Assembly: GCF_003111665.1 (NCBI RefSeq)
Contig: NZ_CP022188.1
Span: 1-64,000 of the forward strand
DNA from: Parazoarcus communis
GTDB taxonomy: Bacteria; Pseudomonadota; Gammaproteobacteria; Burkholderiales; Rhodocyclaceae
Direction: 5' to 3'
DNA length: 64,000 nucleotides
Within the stretch, counting starts at the first letter, position 1. Each line of letters opens with the position of its first letter. The position numbers and the translations under genes are program-made. The notes under the pieces were generated by a model that saw only the letters and a list, made by a program, of their open reading frames with translations, was not told the DNA's origin and ran no database searches. Positions 47,812 to 63,846 of this stretch are shown here, one piece after another.

Positions 47812-48782
47812 ACGTTCCACTCCTGAGCCAATACACTGCTGCGTGCCTGATGAAACTCCTGCTTCAGCTGTGCCACGATTTCCCGCGTAGGCTGAATCCG
47901 GTCGATGCTCCCCACCCCTTGCCCGGCACCCCACACGTCCTTCCAGGGCTTGACCCGATTACTGCCAAAATTCATGGAGGTCTTGTCTGCGTGGGGAAGG
48001 TCGTCCGGATCAAGCCCGGAGGCAACGATGCTGGGCTTGAGATAATTGCCATGCACCCCGGTGAAATACGGGGTGTAGACGATGTCGGCGGCACTGCTGT
48101 CGACCAGCATCCGCTTGTACTCGTCGACCGCATTCGCCTCTTCGCTGGCGATGAAGCGGGTGCCGATATACGCGAAATCCGCCCCCATCGAACGCGCAGC
48201 AAGTATGGCGCCGCCGTTTGCGATCGCCCCGGAGAGCGCGATCGGACCATCGAAGAAGCGCCGCACCTCACGCACCAGCGCAAACGGGCTCAGCGTACCG
48301 GCATGGCCACCCGCGCCGGCACAGACCAGAATCAAACCATCGACGCCGGCTTCGACCGCTTTCTCTGCGTGGCGCACGCTCGTGACGTCGTGAAACACCT
48401 TGCCACCGTATGAATGTGCCGCAGAAACCACATCGCCCGGCGCGCGCAGGCTGGTGATGATCAGCGGTACCCGATGACGCACGCAGCTCTCCATGTCGGC
48501 ATCGAGTCGTTCGTTCGACTGATGCACGATCTGGTTCACCGCGAAGGGTGCGACCCGGGCGCCCGGGTTGTCCCGGCGGAAGCCTTCGAGCCCGCTGCCG
48601 ATCTCGTCCAGCCACTCGTCAAGCTGCGACTGGGGACGCGCATTCAGGGCAGGAAAGGAGCCGATCACGCCACTGGTGCACTGGGCAATGACCAGCGCCG
48701 GGTTGGAGATGATGAACATCGGCGAGCAGATCACCGGAAGGCTCATCTGATCGTATAGACCAGCAACAACGGGGTGAGTCAT
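47808..48782 (-). CDS. nitronate monooxygenase-like flavoprotein
   Basis: The 324-residue TIM-barrel FMN protein has the family landmarks ICSPMFIISNPAL, the phosphate-binding and catalytic CAGAGGHAG, and AIANGGAILAARSMGADFAYIG. Nitronate monooxygenases oxidise alkyl nitronates, but the same fold includes FabK-type enoyl reductases. In a CoA-thioester cluster a reductase or an isomer-handling role is as likely as nitronate oxidation. It overlaps the hydratase start by 4 nt and follows the MFS gene after 24 nt. Confidence 0.82.
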   Translation of the reverse strand: MTHPVVAGLYDQMSLPVICSPMFIISNPALVIAQCTSGVIGSFPALNARPQSQLDEWLDEIGSGLEGFRRDNPGARVAPFAVNQIVHQSNERLDADMESCVRHRVPLIITSLRAPGDVVSAAHSYGGKVFHDVTSVRHAEKAVEAGVDGLILVCAGAGGHAGTLSPFALVREVRRFFDGPIALSGAIANGGAILAARSMGADFAYIGTRFIASEEANAVDEYKRMLVDSSAADIVYTPYFTGVHGNYLKPSIVASGLDPDDLPHADKTSMNFGSNRVKPWKDVWGAGQGVGSIDRIQPTREIVAQLKQEFHQARSSVLAQEWNV

Positions 48783-48806
48783 TCAAAAAGTCTCCAGAAC
48801 ATGTTC

Positions 48807-50204
48807 CTAAACGGGCGCATCCACCCGCCTGATTCGACAGGCCGGAATCGCACCGAGAACGAAGAGCCCGGCCACCATCGCAAAGCCGAGGGTGAAGCCC
48901 CACGCGATGTCATAGCGGGCCGAGGAAAACTCCAGCCACGCCGCGAGCAGGACGATGCCAAGCGCACCACCCAACTGGCGACTGAAATTCATTGCAGCGG
49001 TGACCGCATTCAGGTCATCGGGGTCAGCCAGTCGCATCACGCCACCGTTGAGCGACGGAATGAGCAGCCCGAGCCCGATCCGCCCCAGCACCACCCATGT
49101 CGCCACCCAGATCAAAGCGGTGGAGCTGCCCGAAAGGGCAAGCGCACCGCTGCCGCCGGCAAAGCACAGTAAGCCGGCCACCACCACCTTGCGTACCTCG
49201 ATGCGGTCGGCAAGTGTTCCGCCCAACGGCAGGATTGCAGCGAGCGCAGCTCCGCCCGGCAATAAAAGCAGCCCTGCGGCAAACGCCGACGCATTGAGCT
49301 GATGCTGAGCGAACAGCGGAATCAGATAGGTCGAGCCGTACAGGCCCGCGCCATACACCAGCGCCACACCCAGGCCAGCGCCAACCCCCGGCGCGGAGAA
49401 CAGCCGCGGATTGAGCAGGGGATCGGCCAGGCGCCGCTGACGCAGCACGAAGCAGACACCGGCGACAAGCCCTGCCAGCAGAAGCGGCAGCGCCGACTCG
49501 CTCCCGAAGGTGGGCACGCTGGTGAGCACCGCCACCAGCGCGAAAGAAATCAGCGCAAGACTGGGCAGATCGGGCAAGCGGACGCTCGCCTCCTCTCCAC
49601 GGCCTTCGTAAAGATAACGGCGACAGCCGTACCACGCCGCCGCACTCGGCGGCACCGCGACGAGGAAGACCCCGCTCCAGCCCAGGGAATCCACCAGCAG
49701 ACCGCCGACGACCGGTCCGATTGCCGGCGCCAGCACGATGCCCAGGCCATACACCGCCATTGCCCGGCCGTGTGCATTGGGCGGAAACAGCGGCAGCAAG
49801 CCCACCATCGCAATCGGCTGAATCAGACCGGCGGCAGCGCCCTGAAGTATCCGGCACACAACCAGAATGGAAAAATGCAGATGACCCACCAGTGCGGCCA
49901 TCAGCGAGGCCAGCAACAGGCAGCCCACCGCCACGCCGTAAGCACGGCGCAAACCGAAGCGGCGGATGGTCCACGGCGCCATCAGCATCGTAACCGTCGT
50001 AGCCGCAAGAAAGGCGGTCGCAAGCACCTGCGCAGTCGCATAGCCGATGCCGAATTCGCGCTGAATGGCGGGCAGCGCAACGTTCACCACCGTCCCTTCC
50101 ATCACCGCGACGAAGGTGCCGAGCAACAAGGTGGCGATCGCGCGCCAGCGGAAGCTCGTGCCCTCCGCGGCAATGCGTGCGTCCACCTCGGCCCGCCATA
50201 TCAC
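48807..50204 (-). CDS. MFS transporter, DHA2/EmrB-like
   Basis: The 465-residue protein has 14 predicted membrane segments and DHA2 motifs including VVNVALPAIQREFGIGYATAQ, the A-motif-like loop after segment 2 (APWTIRRFGLRRAYG) and GPVVGGLLVDSLGWSGVF (motif C). It may export the substrate, a toxic intermediate or a drug. GTG at 50204 is the only suitable start and overlaps the livF stop by one base, so it belongs to the ABC transporter operon. Confidence 0.83.
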   Translation of the reverse strand: MIWRAEVDARIAAEGTSFRWRAIATLLLGTFVAVMEGTVVNVALPAIQREFGIGYATAQVLATAFLAATTVTMLMAPWTIRRFGLRRAYGVAVGCLLLASLMAALVGHLHFSILVVCRILQGAAAGLIQPIAMVGLLPLFPPNAHGRAMAVYGLGIVLAPAIGPVVGGLLVDSLGWSGVFLVAVPPSAAAWYGCRRYLYEGRGEEASVRLPDLPSLALISFALVAVLTSVPTFGSESALPLLLAGLVAGVCFVLRQRRLADPLLNPRLFSAPGVGAGLGVALVYGAGLYGSTYLIPLFAQHQLNASAFAAGLLLLPGGAALAAILPLGGTLADRIEVRKVVVAGLLCFAGGSGALALSGSSTALIWVATWVVLGRIGLGLLIPSLNGGVMRLADPDDLNAVTAAMNFSRQLGGALGIVLLAAWLEFSSARYDIAWGFTLGFAMVAGLFVLGAIPACRIRRVDAPV

Positions 50205-50911
50205 TAGTGCTCCAGCGAAAAGTAGAGGTCGTGAAGATCACTCTGGCTGACGTCGCTCGCAGGCTGATCGAGCACCACCTTGCCGCTGCGCATCAGGAAC
50301 ACACGGTCGGCCACGCCCAGCGCGAGATGGGTGTTCTGCTCTACGAGGACGATAGTCACCCCCTCTTCCTTGAGCTTGCGCAGAATGCCCAGAATCTCAT
50401 GCACGATGACCGGCGCCAGACCAAGCGAGGGTTCATCCACGAGCAGCACTCGCGGCTCTGCCATCAAGCCGCGCCCGATGGCCAGCATCTGCGCCTCACC
50501 ACCCGAGAGCGACCCTGCCAGCTGAGAGCGGCGCTCCTTGAGCCGGGGAAAGAACGTGTACGCACGCTCGATGTTGCGCTGGACGGCTGCCCGGCGCGCG
50601 GTGGGGAATGCCCCCATCGCGAGGTTCTCCTCGACCGACATGTCGCGAAAGACCATGCGCCCCTCGGGAATGAGAACCAGCCCTCGGTCCGGCATCTCCC
50701 AGGTCGGCGTGCCGCCAATGCTCTGTCCATTGAGCACGATCTCGCCGCGGGTTGGCGCGACCAGCCCCATCACCGCCTTCAGCATCGTGCTCTTGCCCGC
50801 GCCATTGGGGCCAACCACGGTTGTCAGCTCGCCTTCGCGAAAGTCGAGAGAGGCATCCCACAGCACGTTGATCGCGCCATACCCTGCGCGAATACCCTTT
50901 ACCTCAAGCAT
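50204..50911 (-). CDS. livF: Liv-type ABC transporter ATPase (LivF)
   Basis: The 235-residue ATPase has Walker A GPNGAGKST, signature LSGGEAQ and Walker B RVLLVDEPSLGLAP. It matches LivF of branched-chain amino acid type importers, used in this group for aromatic or other carboxylates as well. The start at MLEVKGIR overlaps the livG stop by 8 nt (ATGCTTGA); an ATG at 50965 is rejected. Confidence 0.92.
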   Translation of the reverse strand: MLEVKGIRAGYGAINVLWDASLDFREGELTTVVGPNGAGKSTMLKAVMGLVAPTRGEIVLNGQSIGGTPTWEMPDRGLVLIPEGRMVFRDMSVEENLAMGAFPTARRAAVQRNIERAYTFFPRLKERRSQLAGSLSGGEAQMLAIGRGLMAEPRVLLVDEPSLGLAPVIVHEILGILRKLKEEGVTIVLVEQNTHLALGVADRVFLMRSGKVVLDQPASDVSQSDLHDLYFSLEH

Positions 50912-51620
50912 CTTCGCCACCTCCGGTATAACTGCGCACCACTTCCGGATCGCGGAAAACGGCATCCGGGGTTCCGTCGGCGAGAATCTCGCCGAAATTC
51001 AGCACCACCACCCGGTGGCACAGACTGGAGACGGTCTCAATGTCGTGCTCGATGATGAGGATGCCGATCTTGAAGCGCTTGTGCATATCCTGCAGGCGCG
51101 CGGTGAAGTGTCGCTTGCCGTTGGTCTCGAGACCCGCGAGCACTTCGTCCAGGAGCAGCATGCGCGGCTCGGTCGCCATTGCCTTGGCCACCTCCAGGCG
51201 CTTGAGCTCCTGCAGCGCGAGCTCGGTCGCGGCATTGCGATCAGCCTGGTCGGTCAGATCCATGAAGTCCATGATCTCGTCCAGACGCTTGTGATCGACC
51301 TTGCCTGCGCCGAAGCGCTGAGCCACCAGCAGGTTTTCACGCACCGTCAGCTCATGCATCGGCTGCGGAATCTGGAACGTGCGGCCGAGACCATGATGAG
51401 CACGCGCATGCAGCGGTTTTCGGGTCAGATCGACGCCGTTGAACATCACCCGGCCGCCGCCCGGCCGCACCAGGCCCGAGATCGCGTTGAACAGGGTGGT
51501 CTTGCCGGCACCATTGGGCCCCACCAGCCCCAGAACCTGATCGGTTCCCATCGAGAATGAAACGTCCTTGACGGCGGTGAGGCCACCGAAGCGAACGGTA
51601 ACGTTTTCAAGCGTGAGCAT
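50904..51620 (-). CDS. livG: Liv-type ABC transporter ATPase (LivG)
   Basis: The 238-residue protein has Walker A GPNGAGKTT and Walker B EPRMLLLDEVLAGL. The expected LSGG signature is replaced by an A-T-E-L-A-L-Q-E-L-K-R stretch, with ALQELKRLEVAKAM in its place, so the canonical ABC signature motif is degenerate. It overlaps livM by 14 nt. It pairs with LivF. The missing LSGGQ is a real oddity, since LivG usually keeps it. Confidence 0.88.
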   Translation of the reverse strand: MLTLENVTVRFGGLTAVKDVSFSMGTDQVLGLVGPNGAGKTTLFNAISGLVRPGGGRVMFNGVDLTRKPLHARAHHGLGRTFQIPQPMHELTVRENLLVAQRFGAGKVDHKRLDEIMDFMDLTDQADRNAATELALQELKRLEVAKAMATEPRMLLLDEVLAGLETNGKRHFTARLQDMHKRFKIGILIIEHDIETVSSLCHRVVVLNFGEILADGTPDAVFRDPEVVRSYTGGGEDA

Positions 51621-52557
51621 TGCGTGCCTCCCGCGGTTTGCGTTTGAAGAGCCTCATCAGGCCATCGGGGGCGAACAGGATCATCCCCGCCAGCACTGCG
51701 CCGAGAATGAGCTGGTGACCCGTGCTCATGATTTCCTTGAACACCAGCTGGTCGACCAGGTAGATCACCACTGCACCGATGGCAGGTCCATACACCGTGC
51801 GGTAGCCACCGAAGATGGCCGCCACGATCGGCAGCACGCTCCAGGCACTGTTGAAGGCGTAGTCCGGCTCGAGGAAGTTGATCACGTGCGCGTTGAACGC
51901 ACCGATCAGCCCCCCCATGAACGCGGACACGAACAGCATCCAGCTCTTGAGCATCAGGCTATTGACGCCAACCACCCGGGTTGCATCCTCGCTGTCATGC
52001 ATGGCGCGCAAGGCCGTGCCGTAGTCCGAGCGACGAATCCGGCCGTACACCCAGCAGAATACGAGCACCAGCGAGACCACCACGAAATACGCCCCCAGTC
52101 TCGACGACAGGTTGAAGCCGAAGATGTCGGGCAGGCCCGGAATCGAGGAAAGCCCGGCAGAGCCGCCGGTCAGCGATGAGAACTCGGTAGCAAGAATCTT
52201 GAAGATGTGTGCGTAGGCCAGGATCGCCAGAGCGAAGTAAGGTCCCGACAGGCGCAGCGCCGGCAACATGAACACCGAGGCCAGCACCGCGGCAACGCCG
52301 CCCGCGGGGATTGCCACCATGACCGGCAAACCGAGCTTGGTCACCAGCAGCGCGGAAGCATAGCCACCGATTCCGAAGAAGGCTGCGTGACCGAAGCTCA
52401 CCATGCCGCCGAGGTTACCCAGCAGCGCCCAAGATACCGCCATGCCGGCAACGATCAGCGACGACACCAGCAAGCTGAGGATGTAGTTGTTTCCATTGAG
52501 CAGGACGGGCACCACTACGTAGAGCAGTGCCAGCGCCACAATCATGCGTTTTTGCAT
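51607..52557 (-). CDS. livM: Liv-type ABC permease (LivM)
   Basis: The 316-residue permease has about ten segments with the LivM motif NLGGMVSFGHAAFFGIGGYA and the cytoplasmic coupling loop SDYGTALRAMHDSEDATRVVG. The start MQKRMIV at 52557 lies 4 nt after the livH stop; an in-frame ATG at 52608 falls inside livH. It forms the channel with LivH. Confidence 0.9.
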   Translation of the reverse strand: MQKRMIVALALLYVVVPVLLNGNNYILSLLVSSLIVAGMAVSWALLGNLGGMVSFGHAAFFGIGGYASALLVTKLGLPVMVAIPAGGVAAVLASVFMLPALRLSGPYFALAILAYAHIFKILATEFSSLTGGSAGLSSIPGLPDIFGFNLSSRLGAYFVVVSLVLVFCWVYGRIRRSDYGTALRAMHDSEDATRVVGVNSLMLKSWMLFVSAFMGGLIGAFNAHVINFLEPDYAFNSAWSVLPIVAAIFGGYRTVYGPAIGAVVIYLVDQLVFKEIMSTGHQLILGAVLAGMILFAPDGLMRLFKRKPREARNAHA

Positions 52558-52561
52558 TGCA

Positions 52562-53434
52562 TCACCCCCGTCTCTTCTGGCCACCGAACAGACCGTTCGG
52601 AAGCACAAACAGCACCACCAGGAAAAGCACCATGCCCGACAGTTCCTGCAACGCAGAGCTGAAGAAGGTCACGGTAAGCGCCTCGGCCACGCCCAGCAGC
52701 AATGCTGCAAGCAGGACTCCCGGAACCGACCCCACCCCTGCCAGCACGGTGATGATGAAGGCCTTCACAGTGAGGGCGTGGCCCAGCGGCGGCGAGATCA
52801 CACCACTCGAATAGATCGCGGTACCCGCCACGGCTGCGAGCAGACCGGCGACCAGGAAGGACACCACCTCGACCTTTGCCGGGTTGATGCCCATGAGCTT
52901 GGCAGCGTCACGGTTGGACGACACCGCACGCACCGCACGGCCATACCAGCTGCGCGACAGCCAGTACCACAACGCGATGGCGACAAAGACGCTGACCACA
53001 AAGGCGCCGAGCTCGCTGTTCATGCTGTATACCGACCCGAACTGGACTGCGTCCTGCATGAAGGACGTGGAGGTCGAACGGATATCGCTCTTCCAGATCA
53101 GCAGAATGCCGTTGGTCAGGATCACGCCAAGCGCAAAGGTCAGCATGAGCGAATTCAGCTCACGGTTTCGTCGAATCCGTGAAACCAGGAAATACACCGT
53201 TGCCGACGCCGCAGCGGTCACAATCGCCGCCACCGGCAAGGAGAGCAAGGGATTGAGCCCGTATGCGCTTTCCATCGTGTATGCCACATAGGCCGCCAGC
53301 AGCACGAGCTCGCCATGCGCAAGGTTGATCACCCGCATGGTGCCGAACGCCAGGGCCAGGCCGAGGCCGATGAGTGCGTAGATGCCGCCCACCAGCACGC
53401 CCGAATAGAGCGCTTGTAAAAGTAGTTCTTGCAT
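52562..53434 (-). CDS. livH: Liv-type ABC permease (LivH)
   Basis: The 290-residue permease has the LivH start MQELLLQALYSGVLVGGIYA and the MRVINLAHGELVLLAAYVA motif, with the coupling loop SWYGRAVRAVSSNRDAAKLMG. It follows livK after a GC-rich hairpin in the 97-nt gap, the usual place for down-regulation of permease relative to binding protein. Confidence 0.92.
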   Translation of the reverse strand: MQELLLQALYSGVLVGGIYALIGLGLALAFGTMRVINLAHGELVLLAAYVAYTMESAYGLNPLLSLPVAAIVTAAASATVYFLVSRIRRNRELNSLMLTFALGVILTNGILLIWKSDIRSTSTSFMQDAVQFGSVYSMNSELGAFVVSVFVAIALWYWLSRSWYGRAVRAVSSNRDAAKLMGINPAKVEVVSFLVAGLLAAVAGTAIYSSGVISPPLGHALTVKAFIITVLAGVGSVPGVLLAALLLGVAEALTVTFFSSALQELSGMVLFLVVLFVLPNGLFGGQKRRG

Positions 53435-53461
53435 GTCTCACCATTGCTTGCGGTCAGAGAC

Positions 53462-53481
53462 CCGGGCGCCAGCGCGCCCGG
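53462..53481 (-). repeat. perfect hairpin between livK and livH
   Basis: CCGGGCGC-CAGC-GCGCCCGG is an 8-bp perfect stem with a 4-nt loop and no T-run, probably a transcript-stabilising or attenuating element after the binding-protein gene. Confidence 0.65.
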
Positions 53482-53531
53482 CCTTGCTTACTGATTGATG
53501 CACACCGGCTTAAGGGCGTGCCTGGCCTTAC

Positions 53532-54695
53532 TTACCAGGGGACACCGGGGTAACGGATCGCACCGGTCGAATCATCCTTGGGCGAGACGATGACGATCTT
53601 GCCGTCCTGGTGCTGGCCCATCCGGTGCTGGAAGTTGGGGTTGTCGCCGGTCGCATCGAACACGAGCTTTCCGATCAGCGTGTCGCGATTGGTCTTGCGC
53701 AGAACCTCGCTCAACTGCCCCTTGGCCAGGCTGCCGTCATCTGCGGCCCGAGCCATCGCTTCGAACAGCACGGTCGCCTTCACGTAGCCAAACTGGGCCA
53801 GGTAATCGACGTCCTTGTTGAACAGCTTCTTGTAGGTTTCCGCGAAGCGCTTACCCTCGGGAGACTTGTACTCGACCGGGAACGGCAGCAGTGCAGTGCC
53901 GATCACGTTAGGCATCAGGTCGGAGAAGTCGGAAGCCATCTGCGGCGTAGCCAGCGACCACACACCGACCATGGCCTTGACGTTCGGCTTGAGCACCTTG
54001 GCCGCACGCAGGATGCCTACGTAGTCGTTCTCATAGGCGCTCATGACGATTACATCAGGCTTGTCGATCAGCTTGATCTTGTTGACGACCGGCTTGAAGT
54101 CGGTGATCGCGGGGTCGAAGGCGTGGGTGGCGACCGTAATGCCCTTCGCCTTCAATGCCTTTGCGACGCCTTCAGCAAGTCCGGAAGTGGCTTCCTTGGT
54201 GTTGAACACGATCGACACCGACTTTGCACCGACCTCGTCCAGAACAGTGGTGACTGCCTTCTCGTAGCCGGCGATGTTGTTGATCCGGAAGAAATGCTTG
54301 TAGCCACGCCCCACCAGGCTGTCGCTCACACCACCTGCGGTGATGTAGGTCAGGCCAATACGCTCGGCCGCATCGGAAGCGGGTCCGATCACGTTGGAGC
54401 CATAGCCGCCGATGATCGCCTGCACCTTCTCCGACGACAGCTTCTCGACCGCGGCAACCGCCTTCGCCGGTGCCGACTCGTCGTCGATCGTGACGAGTTT
54501 GACCGTGTGCTTGCCGTTGTTCCTGTTGAAGATATCCGCAGCAGTCTGGATACCCTCGTTGAAGCCGGCGCCCGAGCGCGCCAGCGCACCCGTCAGCGGC
54601 ATATGCAGACCAACAAGCAGTTCGTCTGCAACTGCGTTCAGGCTCAGTGCGGTCAAACCAGCCACCGCGAACATCTTCTGGATCATTCGTTGCAT
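53532..54695 (-). CDS. livK: ABC transporter periplasmic binding protein (LivK-like)
   Basis: The 387-residue protein has a signal peptide (MQRMIQKMFAVAGLTALSLN, mature at about ADELLVGLH) and the Peripla_BP_6 fold with PLTGALARSGAGFNEGIQTA and IIGGYGSNVIGPASDAAERI. An AGGAGG site lies 7 nt before ATG 54695; the ATG at 54737, overlapping the ligase stop, would add 14 residues before the signal peptide and is less likely. It presumably binds the carboxylate degraded by the island rather than an amino acid. Confidence 0.87.
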   Translation of the reverse strand: MQRMIQKMFAVAGLTALSLNAVADELLVGLHMPLTGALARSGAGFNEGIQTAADIFNRNNGKHTVKLVTIDDESAPAKAVAAVEKLSSEKVQAIIGGYGSNVIGPASDAAERIGLTYITAGGVSDSLVGRGYKHFFRINNIAGYEKAVTTVLDEVGAKSVSIVFNTKEATSGLAEGVAKALKAKGITVATHAFDPAITDFKPVVNKIKLIDKPDVIVMSAYENDYVGILRAAKVLKPNVKAMVGVWSLATPQMASDFSDLMPNVIGTALLPFPVEYKSPEGKRFAETYKKLFNKDVDYLAQFGYVKATVLFEAMARAADDGSLAKGQLSEVLRKTNRDTLIGKLVFDATGDNPNFQHRMGQHQDGKIVIVSPKDDSTGAIRYPGVPW

Positions 54696-54733
54696 GTGTC
54701 GTCCTCCTGTAGATATGGCTACTGTTTTTTGTT

Positions 54734-56275
54734 TCATACCGATGCCGCCTTACCAAGACCCTCGGCGATATGCCGAAGCTCGGTCTTGAGAATCTTTCCG
54801 GTCGCTGCAGCGGGCAGGTGCTCCAGCACCCTGATATGAGCAGGGACCTTGTAGGGAGAGAGATTGGCGCGCAGGTGGCGCGCAAGGTCATCGAGGTCGA
54901 GCGTGCGCCCGGAAACCGCCTCCACGAAGGCGATGACCTCTTCGTTGCCATCCACCTGGCGCCCCACCACCGCCGACTGAACCACGTCCGGGTGTGCGTT
55001 CAGAACCTGCTCGACTTCGACCGGATACACGTTGAAGCCCGAGCGGATGATCAACTCCTTGGCCCGACCAACGATGTGTACCGCACCATCTTCATCGATC
55101 CGTGCCAGATCGCCGGTACGCAGCCAGCCATCGGGCGTCAGCACTTGAGCGCTCAACTCGGGAGCGTGGAAATATCCCTTCATCACATTCGGGCCACGCA
55201 CCCACAACTCGCCCACGAACGCCTCGCCCTCGGGCTCATTGAGCTTCAATTCGATCCCCGGAATCCCCTGCCCGACCGAACAGTCGGTGCGCGGCGCATC
55301 CATCCGGGTCTGGCAGATCGACGGCGCAGCCTCGGTCATGCCATAACCGTTGTTCAGCACCAATCCGCTTGCCGCCTCGAAGGCCTGCTTGAGTGGCAGG
55401 GTGAGCGGAGAGCCGCCAGACTGCGCCACGCGCAGCGTCGGCACCGCGAGCGGCTTGCCATTCCGACGGCACCAGTCGAGCAGCCGCGCATACATTGCCG
55501 GCACGCCATGCAACACGGTGACACCTTCCTTCTCCAGCGCCACCGCGAGCGCATCCGGCGTAAAGAGCGGGACCAGGCGCAGGCAGGCGCCACTGATGAG
55601 CGATGCGATCAGCAACGCCGAAAGACCATAGACGTGTGACAGCGGCAGAACCCCATAGACCACGTCTTCCGGCACAACCCGCCGCAGGGACCGACTATTC
55701 GCACCAATGAAGGCGAGATTGCGATGGGTGAGCATCACGGCCTTGGGCGCTCCGGTCGTACCGGAGGTGTAGACCAATGCGGCAACTTGCTCGGCGCCGC
55801 TTTCGAAAACCGTTTCGGGCTCCGATTCCGCAAGCGGCCCGACCAGCACTTCACCAATCGTCGGAAAGCTCACCGCCGCTGCGTTCGCCGCAGCGCCATG
55901 CGCAGCCGCAGAAGTCGATGTTGCGCCAAAGTAGAGCACCCGCCGCGCACCGGAATGCGAAACGAAGTTATTGATCTCGCGTGAAGAAAGCCTCGGATTG
56001 ACGGTCGCAGACCAGGCGTCGAGGCTGCTCAGGGCGAGGACGGAAACCGCCAGTGCAACCGAATTCTCACCCACAAGCAAAACCCGGTCACCTGGGCGCA
56101 CACCCATTCCGGTCAGCACCGCTGCCACCGCAGAGAGCAATCCGGGCAGCTCACCGTAACAAATCGTGTGCATCGCATCCTCAAGCGCACGCCCCTCAGG
56201 TCGCTTCGCTACCCAAGGCATGCAGGCTTCGTGAATACGTTGCGGCAGCGCAGCCGTCAAAGCGCAGTCAAGCAT
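54734..56275 (-). CDS. acyl-CoA synthetase (AMP-binding ligase)
   Basis: The 513-residue enzyme has the adenylate-forming motifs: P-loop-like YTSGTTGAPKAVMLTH, the GYGMTEAAP A5 motif, GWLRTGDLARIDEDG, and the catalytic Lys in LPAAATGKILKTEL. It activates a free acid to its CoA thioester using ATP, the entry step of the island. It is the first gene of the leftward operon, and a CTGCA dyad lies about 115 nt upstream. Substrate is unknown. Confidence 0.88.
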   Translation of the reverse strand: MLDCALTAALPQRIHEACMPWVAKRPEGRALEDAMHTICYGELPGLLSAVAAVLTGMGVRPGDRVLLVGENSVALAVSVLALSSLDAWSATVNPRLSSREINNFVSHSGARRVLYFGATSTSAAAHGAAANAAAVSFPTIGEVLVGPLAESEPETVFESGAEQVAALVYTSGTTGAPKAVMLTHRNLAFIGANSRSLRRVVPEDVVYGVLPLSHVYGLSALLIASLISGACLRLVPLFTPDALAVALEKEGVTVLHGVPAMYARLLDWCRRNGKPLAVPTLRVAQSGGSPLTLPLKQAFEAASGLVLNNGYGMTEAAPSICQTRMDAPRTDCSVGQGIPGIELKLNEPEGEAFVGELWVRGPNVMKGYFHAPELSAQVLTPDGWLRTGDLARIDEDGAVHIVGRAKELIIRSGFNVYPVEVEQVLNAHPDVVQSAVVGRQVDGNEEVIAFVEAVSGRTLDLDDLARHLRANLSPYKVPAHIRVLEHLPAAATGKILKTELRHIAEGLGKAASV

Positions 56276-56675
56276 CTGTCCCCTCTCTGTGTCATTGATC
56301 CCGGCAACCGCATGGCAGCCAACTGATCCGTTTTTTGCATGTTTGCACAGCGATCATGAAAAGACAACATAAAAATGGACAAACAGCCTGCAGTGCAGAC
56401 ATTGTCATCCAACTGCCTGTCGCGCGCGTCACCTCCAAAGCACGGCAAGGGTCGAAGATCCCGCGCAAACAGCCGTGTTTACTGGCACATACGACAGACA
56501 TTCCTGACAGATGCAGCTCTCCGGAACCTCACTCCGTCGAACAGCGCCGGCATGCCCCGCTCACGAACAGGGCTTTGCAGCGATTGACTTTATCTGCATA
56601 GCGATCAATGATTGGATCATCTAGCAGTTCATTGTTCTGCACTGCAGACATTCAAACACAACAGGAGGAGACCCG
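56276..56675. promoter_or_regulatory. 400-nt divergent control region with two CTGCA dyads
   Basis: This gap between the ligase and 3-hydroxyacyl-CoA dehydrogenase genes holds no gene. CTGCAGTGCAG lies at 56388-56398 and TCTGCACTGCAGA at 56636-56648. A GATCAATGA element occurs at 56291-56300 (minus) and 56603-56613 (plus). A possible rightward promoter is TTGACT (56584-56589), 17-nt spacer, AATGAT (56607-56612), which would put the second dyad just after the transcription start, as expected for repression. Confidence 0.55.
56636..56648. promoter_or_regulatory. CTGCA-N-TGCAG operator candidate before the HAD/thiolase operon
   Basis: TCTGCACTGCAGA is a perfect 13-bp dyad centred on C56642, 27 nt before the dehydrogenase start. 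Confidence 0.55.
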
Positions 56676-58223
56676 ATGAGCGAGCACGGCAGTCAAGACG
56701 CCGCTGGCATGGACACACAAACCCGCCTTGGCGTGGTGGGTTGCGGCTTGATGGGGCGAGGAATTGCCCAGATTGCAGCGAGCGCAGGCGACAAGGTCGT
56801 CCTGGTCGACAACAGACCGGGCGCAGCAGAGGAAGCGCGCGAAGAACTGGCCGCCACACTGCAGAGACTGACAGCCCGGGGCAAGATGACATCTGCGCAG
56901 GCCGACGCAACCCTGGCCAACATCAGCACCGCGGACACGCTTGATGGCCTGGACGGATGCGAAGTGGTCATCGAGGCGATTGTCGAAAACCTTGCGGTCA
57001 AGAAGAGCCTCTTCGCCGACCTCGAGCACATCCTCGGGCCTGACACCATTCTCGCGTCAAACACCTCGTCCCTGTCCGTTACGGCGATCGCAGCAGAGCT
57101 CGAACACCCGGAGCGCGTGGCCGGCATGCATTTCTTCAGCCCGGTTCCGCTGATGAAGGTGGTCGAGGTCATCGACGGCCTGCTGAGCGATCGCCGCGTC
57201 GGCGACCGCCTGATGCAGCTCGGCCAGCGCTGGGGGCATACCGCGGTGCGCGCAAAGGACACCCCGGGGTTCATCGTCAATCACGCCGGACGCGGTTTCG
57301 GCACGGAAGGGATGCGCGTGCACGCCGAATCCGTCGCACCGCATCCAGTCATCGACCGCATCCTGCGCGATTGCGCGGGCTTCCGCCTTGGTCCGTTCGA
57401 ACTGCTCGACCTGACCGGGCTGGATGTCTCGACCCCGGTGATGGAGTCCATCTACCACCAGTACTATGAGGAGCCCCGTTACCGTCCTCAGCCCTTGCTG
57501 CGCACGATGCTGGCAGCCGGGCTGCTGGGACGGAAGGTCGGACGCGGTTTCTATACCTACGGACTCGACGGCAAGCCCGAGATAGCGCCCGAGCGGGCCG
57601 TTCCGCCGGTCCGCGCAGACCGGGTCTGGGTCAGCGAAGCCCGCCCGGAACTCGCAGCCACGGTAAAGGCGCTCCTGCAACGGCTGGGGGCGACGGTGTC
57701 GGACGCAGCACACCCTGACGAAGACGAGCTCATCGTCCTCACCCCGCTGGGCGAGGACGCCAGCACCTGTGCCGCCGCCCAGAACCTCGACGCCACGCGG
57801 ACCGTTGCCATCGACGCGGTATTCGGGCTGGATCGCAGACGCGTGCTGATGACCACCCCGGCGACAACGCCCGAATGGCGCGATCTCGCACTCGGCCTTC
57901 TTGGCGCCGATGGCGTGCCGGTCGACGCCGTGCGTGACAGCGCCGGCATCGTGGCCCAACGGGTCGTAGCGCATATCGTGAACATCGCCTGCGAGATCGC
58001 ACAGCAGGGCGTCGCCTCGCCGGCGGATATCGACCGCGCAGTCTCGCTCGGCCTGGGCTACCCGCATGGCCCACTGGCCTGGGGCGACACCCTGGGCGCC
58101 ACGGTAGTGCTGACCATGCTCGAAAACCTCGCGGCAGCCAGCGGCGACCCGCGCTACCGCCCGTCTCCCTGGCTGCGCCGACGCGCAGCCCTTGGCCTCT
58201 CCCTACTCTCACAGGACGACTGA
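56676..58223 (+). CDS. 3-hydroxyacyl-CoA dehydrogenase (PaaH/PaaC-like, two C-terminal domains)
   Basis: The 515-residue enzyme has a Rossmann domain (GVVGCGLMGRGIAQIAASAG, about 14-33) with the catalytic His in AGMHFFSPVPLMKVVEV, and the NHAGRGFGTEGM region. A second C-terminal helical domain is seen in DSAGIVAQRVVAHIVNIACE. This two-repeat form (about 500 aa) is typical of phenylacetate-type 3-hydroxyadipyl-CoA dehydrogenases. It supplies the NAD-dependent oxidation that the hydratase at 59891 seems to have lost. The thiolase gene starts 3 nt later. Confidence 0.88.
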   Translation: MSEHGSQDAAGMDTQTRLGVVGCGLMGRGIAQIAASAGDKVVLVDNRPGAAEEAREELAATLQRLTARGKMTSAQADATLANISTADTLDGLDGCEVVIEAIVENLAVKKSLFADLEHILGPDTILASNTSSLSVTAIAAELEHPERVAGMHFFSPVPLMKVVEVIDGLLSDRRVGDRLMQLGQRWGHTAVRAKDTPGFIVNHAGRGFGTEGMRVHAESVAPHPVIDRILRDCAGFRLGPFELLDLTGLDVSTPVMESIYHQYYEEPRYRPQPLLRTMLAAGLLGRKVGRGFYTYGLDGKPEIAPERAVPPVRADRVWVSEARPELAATVKALLQRLGATVSDAAHPDEDELIVLTPLGEDASTCAAAQNLDATRTVAIDAVFGLDRRRVLMTTPATTPEWRDLALGLLGADGVPVDAVRDSAGIVAQRVVAHIVNIACEIAQQGVASPADIDRAVSLGLGYPHGPLAWGDTLGATVVLTMLENLAAASGDPRYRPSPWLRRRAALGLSLLSQDD

Positions 58224-58226
58224 CCC

Positions 58227-59429
58227 ATGCTTGACGCCTATATCTACGACGGACTTAGAACGCCCTTCGGACGCCATGCCGGCGCGCTTGCCACAGTGCG
58301 CCCGGACGACCTCGCAGCCGATCTCGTCGCCGCCCTGATTTCACGCACGCCCGAAGCCGCCAACCTGATCGAGGACGTCATCCTCGGCAACACCAACCAG
58401 GCAGGCGAAGACTCGCGCAACGTAGCCCGCTTCGTCGCCCTGCTGGCCGGCCTGCCCGAGTCGGTGCCGGGCCAGACGGTGAACAGGTTGTGTGCGAGCG
58501 GCCTGGCCGCGATTGCGGATGCCGCCCGCGCCATCACCGCAGGTGAAGGCGAGCTCTACCTGGCCGGCGGTGTCGAAAGCATGAGTCGCGCGCCCTTTGT
58601 GATGGCCAAGGCGGAGACCCCCTTCAGTCGTGACTTCCGCATGTTCGACACCACCATCGGCACCCGTTTCCCCAACCCCCGCTTCGTGTCCAGCTTCGGC
58701 GGTCATTCGATGCCGGAGACTGGCGACAACGTCGCTCACGATTACAGCATCGACCGCGAAACTGCGGACAGTTTCGCGCTGACGTCGCAACAACGTTACG
58801 AAAAAGCACGTGCGGAAGGCTTTTTCGACGGCGAAATCCATCCCGTGTCCGTACCTACCGGACGCAAGACGCCACCGCGCGTCGTCAGCACCGACGAACA
58901 CCCCAGGCCGGAAACGACGGCAGAGTCGCTTGCCCGTCTGCGGGCCCTGTTCGAAGGCGGCGTGGTGACGGCGGGCAATGCCTCAGGCGTGAATGACGGG
59001 GCGGCCGCACTGCTCATCGGTTCGCGAGCAGTATCCGAGCGACTCGGCAAGGCACCAAGGGCGCGCATCCTGTCGTCCGCTGCGGCCGGCGTTGCGCCGC
59101 GTGTGATGGGTATCGGCCCGGCCTACGCAATCCCCAAGGCACTGGCCCGCGCCGGCCTCACACTGGCCGACATGGACCTCATTGAAATCAACGAGGCCTT
59201 TGCCAGCCAGGTACTCGGCTGCCTGCACCTGCTTGGTGTCAGCGCCGATGATCCGCGCGTCAACCCCAACGGTGGCGCCATTGCGCTCGGACATCCGCTG
59301 GGCGCCTCGGGCGCACGTCTCGCATTGACCGCCACGCGTGAGCTGGAGCGCAGGAATGGCCGCTACGCGGTCGTCAGCCTGTGCATCGGCATTGGGCAGG
59401 GCCTCGCAATGGTGATCGAACGCACTTGA
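58227..59429 (+). CDS. acetyl-CoA acyltransferase (thiolase, PaaJ/PcaF-like)
   Basis: The 400-residue thiolase has the acyl-binding Cys in VNRLCASGLAAI near residue 92, NEAFASQVLG, the GHPLGASGAR histidine loop and the second active Cys in LCIGIGQGLA. It cleaves a 3-oxoacyl-CoA with CoA; the best general resemblance is to beta-ketoadipyl-CoA thiolases, which suggests a dicarboxylyl intermediate but is not conclusive. It is coupled to the dehydrogenase. Confidence 0.9.
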   Translation: MLDAYIYDGLRTPFGRHAGALATVRPDDLAADLVAALISRTPEAANLIEDVILGNTNQAGEDSRNVARFVALLAGLPESVPGQTVNRLCASGLAAIADAARAITAGEGELYLAGGVESMSRAPFVMAKAETPFSRDFRMFDTTIGTRFPNPRFVSSFGGHSMPETGDNVAHDYSIDRETADSFALTSQQRYEKARAEGFFDGEIHPVSVPTGRKTPPRVVSTDEHPRPETTAESLARLRALFEGGVVTAGNASGVNDGAAALLIGSRAVSERLGKAPRARILSSAAAGVAPRVMGIGPAYAIPKALARAGLTLADMDLIEINEAFASQVLGCLHLLGVSADDPRVNPNGGAIALGHPLGASGARLALTATRELERRNGRYAVVSLCIGIGQGLAMVIERT

Positions 59430-59437
59430 GCCTCATC

Positions 59438-59473
59438 CCCGAGGCACCCTTGATGTCGTGAGGGCGCCTCGGG
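59438..59473. terminator. bidirectional hairpin between thiolase and PaaI genes
   Basis: CCCGAGGCACCC (59438-59449) and GGGCGCCTCGGG (59462-59473) pair with one mismatch, in the 54-nt gap between convergent genes. No T-run. Confidence 0.5.
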
Positions 59474-59483
59474 CACAACCGGC

Positions 59484-59894
59484 TCAGCCCTCGCTGCCCG
59501 GTTGCGCCTGTCCGTGGCGCAGCTTGAAAGTGCCCACGCCCTTGGCCACGATCTCTCCGTTGCCATCCCGTATCAGCGCCTCGCAAAACACCGTCCGTCC
59601 CATCTTGCGCAAGACATCGGCGCGACAGCGCAGCTGCCCCCGGGCCGGACCGATGAATGTCGTATGCAGGTCCACGGTAATCACGCCAACCGCCACGGGG
59701 TCCGTCAGACGCGATGCGCTGCCCATGGCCACATCTAGCAGCGTCATGATCAGGCCACCGTGCCCGTTGCCCATGCTGTTGCACAGTCCGGGCACGATAT
59801 CCACTCCCGACAGCGTCCAGCCCGGACCCGACTCCAGCCCCTTGATGCCGCAGTACTCGATGAAAGGAACATTCAGACCAAAGTAGCCACTCAC
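59484..59894 (-). CDS. PaaI-type hotdog thioesterase
   Basis: The 136-residue protein is a single hotdog domain with GNGHGGLIMTLLDVAMG (the conserved helix) and the VDLHTTFIGPARG strand. PaaI enzymes hydrolyse dead-end acyl-CoA intermediates to free CoA. The start overlaps the preceding gene stop by 4 nt. In this island it would rescue CoA from stalled hydroxy- or aryl-thioesters. Confidence 0.87.
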   Translation of the reverse strand: MSGYFGLNVPFIEYCGIKGLESGPGWTLSGVDIVPGLCNSMGNGHGGLIMTLLDVAMGSASRLTDPVAVGVITVDLHTTFIGPARGQLRCRADVLRKMGRTVFCEALIRDGNGEIVAKGVGTFKLRHGQAQPGSEG

Positions 59895-61324
59895 GACGAT
59901 ACCTCCTGCGCACTCGCCGAACTCAGGCGATGTTGATAAACCGGCCCGCCGAGATAGCGGGGCATCAATCCGAGGTGCACCGCGACCACGTCCGCATCGG
60001 ACAGGCGGTACAGACCACCATTGACCACGGCCGCCTCGGCCCCAAGGCGGAACGCCTCAAGCCCCGCACGTCCGTCAGCATTGCCGGCCTCCAGCAGCGG
60101 AACCAGTGTCGAGGCCCCCGTCGCAGCGCCGCTTGCCACCACGACCGGATTGATACGCCGCGCAATTGCAAACGCCTGCGCCAGTGCGGCAGCACCTGCA
60201 TCGCCCCCTACGCGTACTTCCACGCAGGCCGGCACACCCCCGCGCAGAAACACCGTCATGCCGACAGCCGCTACCTGATCCGCTGCGCGCAGAGCGCAAT
60301 CGAGCCAGCTCACGTCGCCCCGCCCACCTTTGGCAAGCGTCTCTAGCCGCACTGCATCGCTACCTGCCTGCACCGCGGTAGCGCCCGGAAGGTCCGAGTA
60401 GTGCGGGGCGTCCGCCGCCACCGGCACGCCGCCCTTCGTGCCAGCAGGCGGCAGCTTCACGCCTGGAATACGGGCGCAATCACGCTCGGCGAAGAAGACA
60501 TATCTCAGCGCCGAGGACTCTGGAGACTTCATCAGCTGCACAAACAGCGCCCGCTCTCGCAGTACGGCCTCATCGAATGGAAGCTCGAGCGCAAGCCCGA
60601 CCGCCTCGACGCCTGCCTGCGGCGCCGGGCATCCAGGAAAATCCTGAGCCAACTCCAAAGCGGCGCGCTGCATCCAGTCCGGCTGCAGCGCGCCGACATC
60701 GGGCGGAACCCGCAACCGCGTGTCGGGATGCGTGTCACGCCCCATCCGGGCTTCGACGAACGCCACGATGGACGAGTCCAGCTCATCGCTCGCCAACGCA
60801 TCGACGAGCCCCAATTCGGCTGCACTTGCGCCCGAAACAGCGTCGCCACGAGTCACCAGCCTCAATGCGTGCCCAACCCCGACCAGGCGCGGAGCGAGTT
60901 GCGTACCCCACGCGCCCGGAATCAGCCCCAGCTTTACCTCAGGCAGTGCCAGGCTGGCCCCAGGCACTGCCAGCCTGTAATTGCACGCCATGGCCAGCTC
61001 GAGCCCGCCACCCAGTGCAGCCCCGTTGATTACTGCCGTAGTCGGCTTCTCACACGCAAACACACGAGCCAGCACCTGCCGAAGGTCAGGCGAAGCGGTA
61101 GACGCTTCAGTACCGAATTCGCGGACGTCGGCTCCACCACAGAAGAGTTTGCCGGCACCGGTGAGCGCAATCGCATCCGTGTCGGACTCCGACTCTACCC
61201 GGTCAAGTGCAGCGACAAGTGCAGACCTGAGCGCGTGCCCCAGTCCGTTGACAGGCGGGTTGTGCATTTCCAGCACCGCAATCTGGACACTGCTGGGGCT
61301 GGACAGATATCTGACGTTGATCAC
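59891..61324 (-). CDS. enoyl-CoA hydratase fused to a degenerate hydroxyacyl-CoA dehydrogenase remnant
   Basis: The protein (about 477 residues) has a normal crotonase domain at about 1-190 (GKLFCGGADVREFG, INGAALGGGLELAMACNYR, LPEVKLGLIPGAWGTQ). A bridge helix follows with YVFFAERDCARIPGV, the linker seen in FadJ/FadB/PimF. The NAD-binding Rossmann core normally present (GxGxMG) is absent: the next 60 residues lack a glycine-rich motif. The last 120 residues still resemble the C-terminal HAD helices (SDADVVAVHLGLMPRYLGGPV). So this is a trifunctional-type protein reduced to a hydratase. GTG 61324 is chosen for its GGTGGA site; ATG 61339 is an alternative. Confidence 0.8.
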   Translation of the reverse strand: MINVRYLSSPSSVQIAVLEMHNPPVNGLGHALRSALVAALDRVESESDTDAIALTGAGKLFCGGADVREFGTEASTASPDLRQVLARVFACEKPTTAVINGAALGGGLELAMACNYRLAVPGASLALPEVKLGLIPGAWGTQLAPRLVGVGHALRLVTRGDAVSGASAAELGLVDALASDELDSSIVAFVEARMGRDTHPDTRLRVPPDVGALQPDWMQRAALELAQDFPGCPAPQAGVEAVGLALELPFDEAVLRERALFVQLMKSPESSALRYVFFAERDCARIPGVKLPPAGTKGGVPVAADAPHYSDLPGATAVQAGSDAVRLETLAKGGRGDVSWLDCALRAADQVAAVGMTVFLRGGVPACVEVRVGGDAGAAALAQAFAIARRINPVVVASGAATGASTLVPLLEAGNADGRAGLEAFRLGAEAAVVNGGLYRLSDADVVAVHLGLMPRYLGGPVYQHRLSSASAQEVSS

Positions 61325-61492
61325 AATACATTCCACCATGCAGTCAATGATTCTGCAAATTATCACTCATGCTTGAGGTCTTGAACAGCCTGAACGGCCT
61401 AATCAAGCACAACACTGCATATATCTGCGCGATTTGATGCCTTGCGGAATTCCCTCAGCTGAAATATGCTTTGTCTGCACATCAATCATTAC

Positions 61493-61507
61493 GTCTGCAG
61501 TGCAGAC
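61493..61507. promoter_or_regulatory. 15-bp perfect CTGCA dyad before the acyl-CoA dehydrogenase operon
   Basis: GTCTGCAGTGCAGAC is a perfect palindrome centred on G61500, ending 13 nt before the first acyl-CoA dehydrogenase start. A half site GTCTGCAC (61473-61480) and an ATCAATCATT element (61481-61490) precede it, and a TGCAG-N9-CTGCA repeat (61339-61357) covers the start of the opposing hydratase gene. Confidence 0.6.
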
Positions 61508-61520
61508 CAACGAGGTTTTT

Positions 61521-62717
61521 ATGGATCTGAACTTCACACCCGACGAGATCGCTTTTCGCGACGAGGTGCGGGACTTCATCCGCGACCACCTGCCCGCTAC
61601 GGTCCGCCACAAGGTTCTCAATGGCCTGCATCTGGAGCGAGACGACTACCTGTGCTGGCAAAAGGCCCTGCATGCACGCGGCTGGGGCGGTTCGTCGTGG
61701 CCCGAGGCGTTCGGCGGAACCGGCTGGAACGCCGTTCAGCAATACATCTTCGACGAGACCTGCGCTGCCGGCGGCGCACCACGCCTGGTGCCCTTCGGAC
61801 TGAAGATGGTGGCCCCGGTCATCATGGCTTTCGGCAATGCCGAGCAGCAGGCGCGCTTTCTGCCCCCGATCCTTGCCGGTGAAGAATGGTGGTGTCAGGG
61901 CTACTCGGAGCCCGGCTCGGGCTCTGACCTCGCTTCGGTCAAGACCCGCGCAGTTCGCGACGGCGAGCACTATGTGGTGAACGGGCAAAAGACATGGACC
62001 ACCCTGGGACAGTACGCCGACTGGATCTTCTGTCTGGTGCGCACCGACCCTGAGGCGAAGGCCCAGCGCGGTATCTCCTTCCTGCTGATCGACATGAAGA
62101 CGCCTGGCGTTACCGTGCGCCCGATCATCACCATGGACGGTCTGCATGAAGTCAATGAAGTGTGGCTGGAAGACGTCCGGGTTCCGGTAGCCAACCTGAT
62201 TGGCGAAGAGAACAAGGGCTGGACCTACGCGAAGTTCCTGCTGGGCCATGAACGCACCAACATCGCGGGCATCGGTATCGCCAAGCGCGAACTGGGACGC
62301 CTCAAGCGTATTGCGGCAGGCGAGTCACTTGATGGACGACCGCTCATCGAAGACGCACTGTTCGCCTCCCGTATCGCTCAACTTGAGATCGAACTGATGG
62401 CGCTGGAGATCACCAACCTGCGTGTGCTGTGCGCCGAAGCCGAGCGCCGCGCACCCGGCCCCGAGGCGTCGATCCTCAAGATCAAGGGCAGCGAGATCCA
62501 GCAAGGCATCGTCGAACTGATGACCGAGGCCATCGGCGCTTACGCTCTGCCCTATCGGCGAGAGGCCATGAGCGCCGGATATCAGGGCGAGGCCATCGGT
62601 CCGTTCCATGCCATCACCCCAACCGCCCAGTATCTCAATCTGCGCAAACTCTCCATTTACGGCGGGTCGAACGAGATTCAGCGCAACATCATTTCCCAGA
62701 TGATTCTGGGGCTGTAA
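61521..62717 (+). CDS. acyl-CoA dehydrogenase, large/PimC-like subunit
   Basis: The 398-residue flavoprotein has the ACAD fold with QGYSEPGSGSDLASVKTRA, the NGQKTWTT region and the C-terminal IYGGSNEIQRNIISQ. It lacks the Glu of the IYEGT motif used by medium-chain enzymes; a candidate base is the Glu of LLGHERTNIAG. It is 10 nt from a second, dissimilar ACAD gene. Such adjacent pairs (PimCD, FadE26-27 types) form heteromeric enzymes for bulky or dicarboxylic acyl-CoAs. The start at 61521 is fixed by the family N-terminus MDLNFTPDEIAFRDEV. Confidence 0.88.
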   Translation: MDLNFTPDEIAFRDEVRDFIRDHLPATVRHKVLNGLHLERDDYLCWQKALHARGWGGSSWPEAFGGTGWNAVQQYIFDETCAAGGAPRLVPFGLKMVAPVIMAFGNAEQQARFLPPILAGEEWWCQGYSEPGSGSDLASVKTRAVRDGEHYVVNGQKTWTTLGQYADWIFCLVRTDPEAKAQRGISFLLIDMKTPGVTVRPIITMDGLHEVNEVWLEDVRVPVANLIGEENKGWTYAKFLLGHERTNIAGIGIAKRELGRLKRIAAGESLDGRPLIEDALFASRIAQLEIELMALEITNLRVLCAEAERRAPGPEASILKIKGSEIQQGIVELMTEAIGAYALPYRREAMSAGYQGEAIGPFHAITPTAQYLNLRKLSIYGGSNEIQRNIISQMILGL

Positions 62718-62727: not shown

Positions 62728-63846
62728 ATGGACTTTTCCTTCACCGAAGAACAGAACATGCTGCTGGAAACCACGCGTCGATTCGTATCACGCGAATATG
62801 GCTTCGAAGCACGCAAGCAGATCACCTCCAGCGAAACCGGCATGAGCCGCAAGACCTGGTCCTCACTGGCCGAGATCGGCTTGCTTGCCCTGCTGGTGCC
62901 AGAGGAAAACGGCGGTCTGGAAGCCGGTCCGGTTGAAACCATGCTCGTCATGTCCGCACTGGGCGAAGGCCTGGTGGTAGAGCCCTTCCTGACCAGCGCC
63001 GTCATGTCGACCTCAGCCATCGCCCGCCTCGGCAGCACCGTCCAGAAGGAGGCCTGGTTGCCCTTGCTGGCCGGTGGCGAAGTTATTGCAGTGTTTGCAC
63101 ACGAGGAGAAAGCAGCGTCCTCGGATCCCCTCCGGATCAATACCACCGCCACGCCGGCGGGCGGAGGCTATGTCATCTCCGGCAGCAAGCACGTGATCTA
63201 TCACGCGCCACAGGCAGATCTTCTGCTGGTCAGCGCGAAGCTTCCCGAAGGCCAGCTCGCGCTGTTCGCGATACCTGCAAACACCCCGGGGCTGCGCATG
63301 CAGGCCTATCCAACGGTTGACGGCAGGCGCGCCGCCGATCTTCATTTCCAGCAGATGTTCGTCCCTGCCGATACCCGCCTGTGCTCGGCCGATGCAAACG
63401 AGGTCATCGCCGACGTGCTCGACCTCGGACTTGCGGCCCTGTGCGCCGAGGCAACCGGCAGCCTCGACAAGCTGCTTGCAGCAACCATCGAGTATGCCGG
63501 CGCCCGCAAGCAGTTCGGCGTGCCGATCGGCAAGTTCCAGGCCCTGCAGCATCGCATGGCCGACATGCTGATCCATCGCGAGCAGGCCCGTTCAATGTCC
63601 TACCTGGCCGCCATTCGCGCAGGCGAGCAAGCTGGCGCCGAACGCAGCCGTGCGCTGTCCGCGGCAAAGGTGGTAATCGGCCAGGCCTGCCGCTTCGTCG
63701 GCCAGCAGGCGGTGCAGATTCATGGCGGCATGGGCGTCACGGACGAGCTCGACGTCAGTCACTACTTCAAGCGCCTGTTTGCGATCGAAAAGCTGTTTGG
63801 CACGACGGATAGCCACCTGCGACGCTTCAGCGCAGCGGCCAGCTAA
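62728..63846 (+). CDS. acyl-CoA dehydrogenase, small/PimD-like subunit
   Basis: The 372-residue protein has the ACAD N-terminus (MDFSFTEEQNMLLETTRRFV), a shortened middle domain, the FAD-contacting ARKQFGVPIGKFQALQ and the C-terminal QIHGGMGVTDELDVSHYFKR. It starts 10 nt after the preceding ACAD, and the pair ends in a strong terminator. It is more divergent in the substrate region than its partner, consistent with a structural or FAD-supplying role in a heteromer. That is inference. Confidence 0.88.
   Translation: MDFSFTEEQNMLLETTRRFVSREYGFEARKQITSSETGMSRKTWSSLAEIGLLALLVPEENGGLEAGPVETMLVMSALGEGLVVEPFLTSAVMSTSAIARLGSTVQKEAWLPLLAGGEVIAVFAHEEKAASSDPLRINTTATPAGGGYVISGSKHVIYHAPQADLLLVSAKLPEGQLALFAIPANTPGLRMQAYPTVDGRRAADLHFQQMFVPADTRLCSADANEVIADVLDLGLAALCAEATGSLDKLLAATIEYAGARKQFGVPIGKFQALQHRMADMLIHREQARSMSYLAAIRAGEQAGAERSRALSAAKVVIGQACRFVGQQAVQIHGGMGVTDELDVSHYFKRLFAIEKLFGTTDSHLRRFSAAAS

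Follow-up and report, generated by a model that had tools for sequence, protein, structure and literature searches.

The first 64,000 nucleotides of Parazoarcus communis contig NZ_CP022188.1 (RefSeq assembly GCF_003111665.1), hereafter the window, contain an island of acyl-CoA catabolic genes whose intergenic DNA carries the same short dyad, CTGCA-N-TGCAG (CTGCANTGCAG), three times. Are these dyads operators and, if so, which protein reads them? An initial annotation, based on the window alone, took them for operators of an IclR-family regulator encoded in the island. Comparison with related genomes supports that assignment, on the strength of conservation among relatives, co-occurrence with the regulator, and sites upstream of iclR itself in distant homologs. 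Taken as a whole, the data are best explained by reading the dyads as operators of the IclR-family protein whose gene lies at 46182–47003 on the minus strand, an explanation that we consider very probable; that this protein is the one that binds them seems to us more probable still. Its predicted role rests on domain scores and co-occurrence. The protein scores 57.5 bits against HTH_IclR (PF09339; cutoff 22) and 72 bits against IclR_C (PF01614; cutoff 24), placing it in the family.

The exact dyad occurs in the window at 56388–56398, 56637–56647 and 61495–61505. Chance would supply a mean of 0.18 copies, and none of 100 dinucleotide shuffles reaches three. Among the 1132 gapped-palindrome families of the window (5-bp arms, gap 0–12), this is the sole family with three copies in intergenic DNA of the island. 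Relaxed searches of the window stay near chance: one mismatch gives seven matches versus 4.8 expected (21 of 100 shuffles reach seven), and a 13-mer with two mismatches gives seven versus 3.7 expected (7 of 100 shuffles). The dyads sit in the two divergent intergenic regions of the island. One region, 56276–56675, separates the ligase gene (minus strand) from the genes for 3-hydroxyacyl-CoA dehydrogenase (HADH) and thiolase (plus strand); the other, 61367–61520, separates a hydratase-like gene (minus strand) from a pair of acyl-CoA dehydrogenase genes (plus strand), the first of which we call ACD1. The claim that a near-identical dyad marks three promoters, in the control regions of the ligase/transporter, dehydrogenase/thiolase and acyl-CoA dehydrogenase genes, is thus borne out by both copy number and position.

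In extended form, and scored with a position weight matrix (PWM) built from relatives' sites as described below, the three predicted operators differ in strength and placement. Site 1 (GCCTGCAGTGCAGAC, 56386–56400) is the weakest (PWM 10.5) and is centred 118 bp upstream of the ligase start codon. Site 2 (TTCTGCACTGCAGAC, 56635–56649; PWM 22.4) is centred 34 bp upstream of the HADH start codon. Site 3 (GTCTGCAGTGCAGAC, 61493–61507; PWM 17.6) is a perfect 15-bp palindrome centred 21 bp upstream of the ACD1 start codon, which we place at 61521 on the grounds that the PimC model begins directly after that Met. A promoter-like pair, TTGACT-17-AATGAT, lies at 56584–56612, its last base 22 bp before the start of site 2; a scan of the site 3 region yields no sigma-70-like promoter pair.

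Is the dyad conserved beyond this genome? We searched named genomes with the ligase and took the best 80 of 394 loci, 40 of which have a ligase of at least 50% identity; the 600 bp before the ligase in those 40 loci (24 kb in total) were compared with the remaining 680 kb. In a motif-blind count of palindromes (5-bp arms, gap 0–12) upstream of the 40 ligases, TCTGC-N3-GCAGA comes out on top with 22 of 40 loci; the most widespread unrelated family reaches 6 of 40, with nested or shifted forms of TCTGC-N3-GCAGA ranking between the two. Exact CTGCANTGCAG cores number 26 in the 24 kb versus four in the other 680 kb, and two of those four (in loci L021 and L025) lie between dehydrogenase and hydratase genes. 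The PWM derived from these 26 sites picks out 38 upstream versus two elsewhere. These counts are partly circular because 26 of the same sites went into the matrix; the exact-core and motif-blind counts are not circular. Upstream of the other 40 ligases, those below 50% identity, no site is above threshold. The consensus of the relatives is usually TTCTGCANTGCAGAA, and the bases flanking the centre are sometimes changed, giving TTCTGC-N3-GCAGAA. With exceptions taken up below, a palindrome of about 15 bp is conserved upstream of the regulator's predicted targets across orthologs, as expected of an operator. By this comparison, the site in its full form, TTCTGC-N3-GCAGAA, stands before the transcription units of the island and tracks the IclR subfamily across genomes. 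In the two Azoarcus genomes with close orthologs, the ligase-proximal counterpart of site 1 is strong in one locus (L209) and degenerate in the other (L210). A second conserved block, roughly AAATGGAACTGTATTTCTT, is seen beside the HADH-proximal dyad in several loci (L017, at about 9700–9740; L018, L019, L020, L022–L024) and is perhaps a promoter.

The link to the IclR protein comes from co-occurrence. Loci in which the ligase is at least 50% and IclR at least 60% identical have a strong upstream site in 16 of 21 cases, and ligase loci without IclR in the stretch examined have one in 3 of 8. Within an order-wide set of 399 genomes, six (own genome included) have an IclR ortholog of at least 60% identity, and the pattern KTCTGCANTGCAGAM occurs in five of these six versus 21 of the 393 others (Fisher p = 4.6e-6; 4 of 5 and p = 5.9e-5 with the own genome excluded). 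All five occurrences are on the same contig as iclR, within about 0.1–17 kb of it, and the sixth genome (L178) has a one-mismatch form, TTCTGCATTGCAGGA, between iclR and a divergent ACD1 acyl-CoA dehydrogenase gene. Some genomes were met twice and are not independent (L021 is G484, L025 is G431, L045 is G508 and L048 is G301); L187/L131 and L190/L134 are the same genes, and each was counted once. Nine of 15 distinct homologs at 45–48% identity have a TTCYGCANTGCRGAA-type site (PWM at least 13.5) in the 350 bp directly before the iclR gene; six of these nine, which belong to two genera of one family, have two sites 20 bp apart. The neighbourhood is annotated for three of the nine (L191, L192, L194), and no counterpart of the island's ligase, HADH or transporter genes was found there. 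In the window, and in those close relatives where iclR likewise comes after the ligase, the iclR gene lacks a separate site. Possible pseudogenes are also present among distant iclR homologs, four of which contain one in-frame stop (G103:C1:275560; G186:C2:196217; G222:C7:199424, TAG; G253:C1:4507767, TGA).

The geometry of the sites points to the same family. In the survey of Suvorova and Gelfand (2021, PMC8222616), IclR-family sites are palindromic and occur in tandem at 18–22 nt in 94 of 181 ortholog groups. We scanned the 170 flanks of 85 distinct sites (PWM at least 13.5, plus the three window sites; a few chance matches are expected among them) for half-sites at distances of 13 to 55. 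At exactly 20 bp, 33 of the 170 flanks carry a half-site matching in 5 or more of 6 positions, whereas the other distances average 1.8 and never exceed 7; the 33 flanks represent 27 distinct cases, six site pairs being counted from both ends, and some of the genomes are closely related. In the window, a partner half-site GTCTGCA (CATCAATC, 61473–61487) lies exactly 20 bp before site 3, in a block largely conserved with the two Azoarcus. A weak partner ending in AGCAGTT (56615–56629) lies 20 bp from site 2 and is under 5 of 6 matches in the window and at 5 of 6 in both Azoarcus loci; the partner of site 1 is below threshold. The peak at 20 bp, together with the conserved block before ACD1, brings these sites within the 18–22 nt tandem spacing of IclR-family operators. 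The recognition helix also covaries with the site. Where the helix starts with LPKST, the outer base is A in 76 of 88 cases and C in 5 of 88; where it starts with LPRST, as in the window and the two Azoarcus, the outer base is C in 12 of 18 (Fisher 3.8e-8 on those counts, in which the bases are not independent).

How might the regulator act? An IclR dimer would occupy the full palindrome, and the half-site 20 bp, or two DNA turns, away would be reached as a dimer of dimers. Bound at sites 2 and 3, the protein would block transcription, since the promoter-like pair precedes site 2, and the centre of site 3 is 21 bp upstream of its start codon; the latter position fits the most frequent site centre in the survey, −22 from the start codon (PMC8222616). 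A metabolite of the pathway, either the acid or its CoA ester, would then release the protein. Because iclR lies within the ligase run, near its end, and has no dyad just upstream, site 1 would govern the whole ligase-transporter run including iclR, creating an autoregulatory loop. Judging from site positions and the habits of the family, we think that IclR probably acts mainly by repression, and it is likely, if slightly less so, that its ligand is the pathway acid or the CoA ester of that acid.

The same sites could instead serve an IclR protein that is mainly an activator, or of dual sign like PcaU and PobR, and that recruits polymerase at the ligase promoter from site 1. The best-scoring NCBIfam model for the protein is indeed that of PcaR/PcaU/PobR (TIGR02431), at 120.1 bits under a cutoff of 284.75, and the location of site 1 far upstream of the ligase start, at a distance from a TGTCCATTTT block that is maintained in the two Azoarcus, would suit such a role. 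The placement of site 2 between the promoter-like pair and the start codon, and of site 3 at −21, suits blocking, however, and we consider an activator unlikely. It is far less likely again that some other regulator, of the TetR, LysR or ribbon-helix-helix type, binds the dyads and that the tie to iclR reflects a shared neighbourhood only. A ribbon-helix-helix protein (RHH_4, PF13467) is encoded at 43904–44368 on the plus strand, opposite to iclR and 1.8 kb from it, a second DNA-binding protein close by that qualifies the statement of the initial annotation that IclR is the only regulator in the island. Beta-proteobacteria are also reported to have TetR and LysR regulators whose phenotypes involve dicarboxylates or fatty acids (PMC12543098). 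Such a reader of the dyads would not account for the motif directly upstream of iclR in nine of the 15 distant homologs, including three near which the ligase, HADH and transporter genes were not found, for the covariation of the site with the recognition helix of IclR (in one clade), or for a 20-bp geometry that is that of IclR-family tandem sites. Least probable of all, and barely worth entertaining, is a reading of the dyads as elements of RNA, such as short hairpins or terminators, or as low-complexity palindromes that arose by chance: a simple scan does flag site 1 as terminator-like on the minus strand (six pairs, loop of 3), but sites 2 and 3 are not flagged, conservation goes beyond pairing to the primary sequence, the sites lie in divergent intergenic DNA, and their number in relatives is far above chance.

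Returning to IclR as a repressor that reads the dyads, a number of observations weigh against it. Five of the 21 close loci have best PWM scores under threshold (7.1, 7.1, 13.5, 13.7 and 14.1), and two of these, L029 and L033, have nothing above 7.1. Where IclR is 45–60% identical, a strong site is present in 5 of 11 loci. Among orthologs of about 70% identity in the same family, sites in the stretch examined are weak in L185 (8.8) and in L211 and L213 (11.2), and none above 7 is found in L186, L215, L217 and L220; for L186, L215 and L217 the contig stops short of the ligase promoter. Six of the 15 homologs at 45–48% have no site upstream of iclR, and in two of the six iclR follows the ligase. 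The 60% cut and the pattern used for the co-occurrence count were picked after the window and the first relatives had been seen, and with a looser cut (E <= 1e-50) the co-occurrence is gone (5 of 60 versus 21 of 339, p = 0.57). Distant IclR proteins that read altered sites would explain this loss of signal; the test is still a limited one. The apparent change of the outer base pair with Lys/Arg of the recognition helix comes from one clade and amounts to about one event. Finally, site 1, weak and possibly upstream of its promoter, may fit activation too.

How far does the regulon extend? A genome-wide scan for the dyad, proposed in the initial annotation, finds 17 exact copies of CTGCANTGCAG in 4.89 Mb. 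Most of the 14 copies outside the island are inside long frames: 12 are within frames of at least 286 aa, one is in a 125-aa frame, and one is 11 bp upstream of a gene (frames were assessed by length and codon-position GC only). We inspected 18 places outside the island among exact or near matches, covering the three-mismatch candidates in part, and rejected a wider regulon in this genome, as the better-scoring matches fall in coding frames or precede unrelated genes (a type II secretion F gene, 287184; a ManC-type gene, 4663995; a helicase gene, 1696678). The reversed pattern has two copies versus 17, but its dinucleotides differ and we do not rely on this control. Together with the relatives, the scan suggests that the regulon is essentially the island, in line with the self-contained regulon first proposed. 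A weaker dyad, TACTGCAGTGCACAA, lies elsewhere in the genome (G000:C1:3732845–3732859, L117), 97 bp before a CoA-ligase-like gene, and could be a further target or a chance match.

One part of the initial annotation did not hold. The variant TGCAG-N9-CTGCA at 61339–61357, put forward as a fourth control site, is present; its half-sites have the opposite polarity, and it overlaps the 5′ end of the hydratase frame. We dropped it as an operator, as at least one match turns up in 16 of 100 shuffles and the element is absent from the two Azoarcus relatives. One of these, L209, has a regular GTCTGCAAAGCAGAC near its hydratase gene (16135–16149), a further putative operator that the window lacks.

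The genes behind the sites offer some indication of what is being controlled. Behind site 1, on the minus strand, a run of genes opens with the acyl-CoA ligase (54734–56275) and continues, tightly spaced between ligase and iclR (47038–54737), with a branched-chain-type ABC transporter (binding protein, two permeases and two ATPases), an MFS transporter, an NMO-like protein and an enoyl-CoA hydratase. An electron-transfer-flavoprotein:ubiquinone oxidoreductase (ETF-QO; 44393–46036) comes after iclR on the same strand, in the same order as in L021, and the ribbon-helix-helix gene lies beyond it. On the plus strand, site 2 precedes HADH (56676–58223; PRK08268 subfamily) and the thiolase (58227–59429), which scores 718.8 against the 3-oxoadipyl-CoA thiolase model NF006001, above the equivalog cutoff of 622. 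Site 3 precedes ACD1 (61521–62717), which is PimC-like (TIGR03204, 509.9, below the equivalog cutoff of 623.85), and a PimD-like acyl-CoA dehydrogenase (62728–63846; TIGR03203, 343.4, below the equivalog cutoff of 652.7). The closest solved chain to ACD1, 4x28, is listed only as acyl-CoA dehydrogenase, and the best solved relatives of the binding protein are mostly of the Leu/Ile/Val type. Divergent from ACD1, on the minus strand, are the enoyl-CoA hydratase-like gene (59891–61366), whose true start may lie downstream of 61366, and after it a hotdog-fold thioesterase (59484–59894) that scores just over the TIGR00369 domain cutoff. The hydratase-like protein is 491 aa long; Pfam crotonase models cover only about its first 200 residues, and the remainder has no Pfam match. 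By analogy, the thiolase (which passes its cutoff), the Pim-like pair (which does not) and the ABC transporter suggest a pathway resembling dicarboxylate-type beta-oxidation.

The island looks accessory in this genus: its four other genomes have neither an IclR ortholog nor KTCTGCANTGCAGAM, and their best ACD1 relative is at 46%, yet close IclR orthologs (77–78%) are present in two Azoarcus genomes from the same family. GC content does not set the island apart within the window. It is conceivable, and we put it forward tentatively, that we are looking at a portable module: an IclR subfamily that reads a distinct class of operator (TTCTGC-N3-GCAGAA and, exactly 20 bp from it, a half-site), binds it as a tetramer on three half-sites and has travelled among beta-proteobacteria with varied acyl-CoA catabolic genes as cargo, while its recognition helix and the outer base pair changed together. 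The control proposed here is of an ordinary type and leaves the general picture of IclR regulation unaltered. What it would add is a DNA motif and a regulon for an IclR subfamily that occurs in various beta-proteobacteria next to genes for an acyl-CoA ligase and a pair of acyl-CoA dehydrogenases. The system may also provide a sensor part for dicarboxylate-type acids, with the Lys/Arg change as a simple specificity handle; an IclR-family dicarboxylic-acid biosensor has reportedly been described by Pham et al. in 2024.

How does this system compare with known ones? Like R. palustris PimCD and dicarboxylate beta-oxidation genes, the island combines paired acyl-CoA dehydrogenases with an ABC transporter, a thiolase and a 3-hydroxyacyl-CoA dehydrogenase. 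In Ralstonia CL21, loss of a PimCD-like pair causes strong fitness defects on C8–C12 diacids, and ABC transporters are held by the authors to take up diacids of C7 and longer; the IclR regulator described there is, in contrast, PcaR of the beta-ketoadipate operon (PMC12543098). The PcaR, PcaU and PobR sites in Table 1 of the IclR-family survey are unlike the present dyad (PMC8222616). The E. coli IclR operator in the same table, TGGAAATNATTTCCA, is likewise a 15-bp palindrome with a one-base centre, bound by an IclR-family protein in catabolic control, but its half-site is TGGAAAT rather than TTCTGCA. Closer in layout is the group 2 motif of the survey, TGRAACA-N1-2-TGTTYCA, which shares the one-base centre arrangement, the partner at two DNA turns and the centre near −22; the letters of TTCTGCANTGCAGAA differ, and here there is usually a full site plus a half-site rather than two full palindromes (PMC8222616). 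By eye, TTCTGCANTGCAGAA matches neither the group 1 nor the group 2 consensus letters given in that survey. Among open-licence PMC papers, a scope that does not cover survey supplements or RegPrecise, we found no earlier description of the motif except one candidate. This is the pair of sites TTCTGCACAGCAGAA and TTCTGCTGTGCAGAA from Rhodococcus sp. TFB, which are actinobacterial, belong to gentisate genes and were proposed there from sequence, but which have the same TTCTGC-N3-GCAGAA half-sites and for which an IclR-like protein was likewise proposed (PMC3937715).

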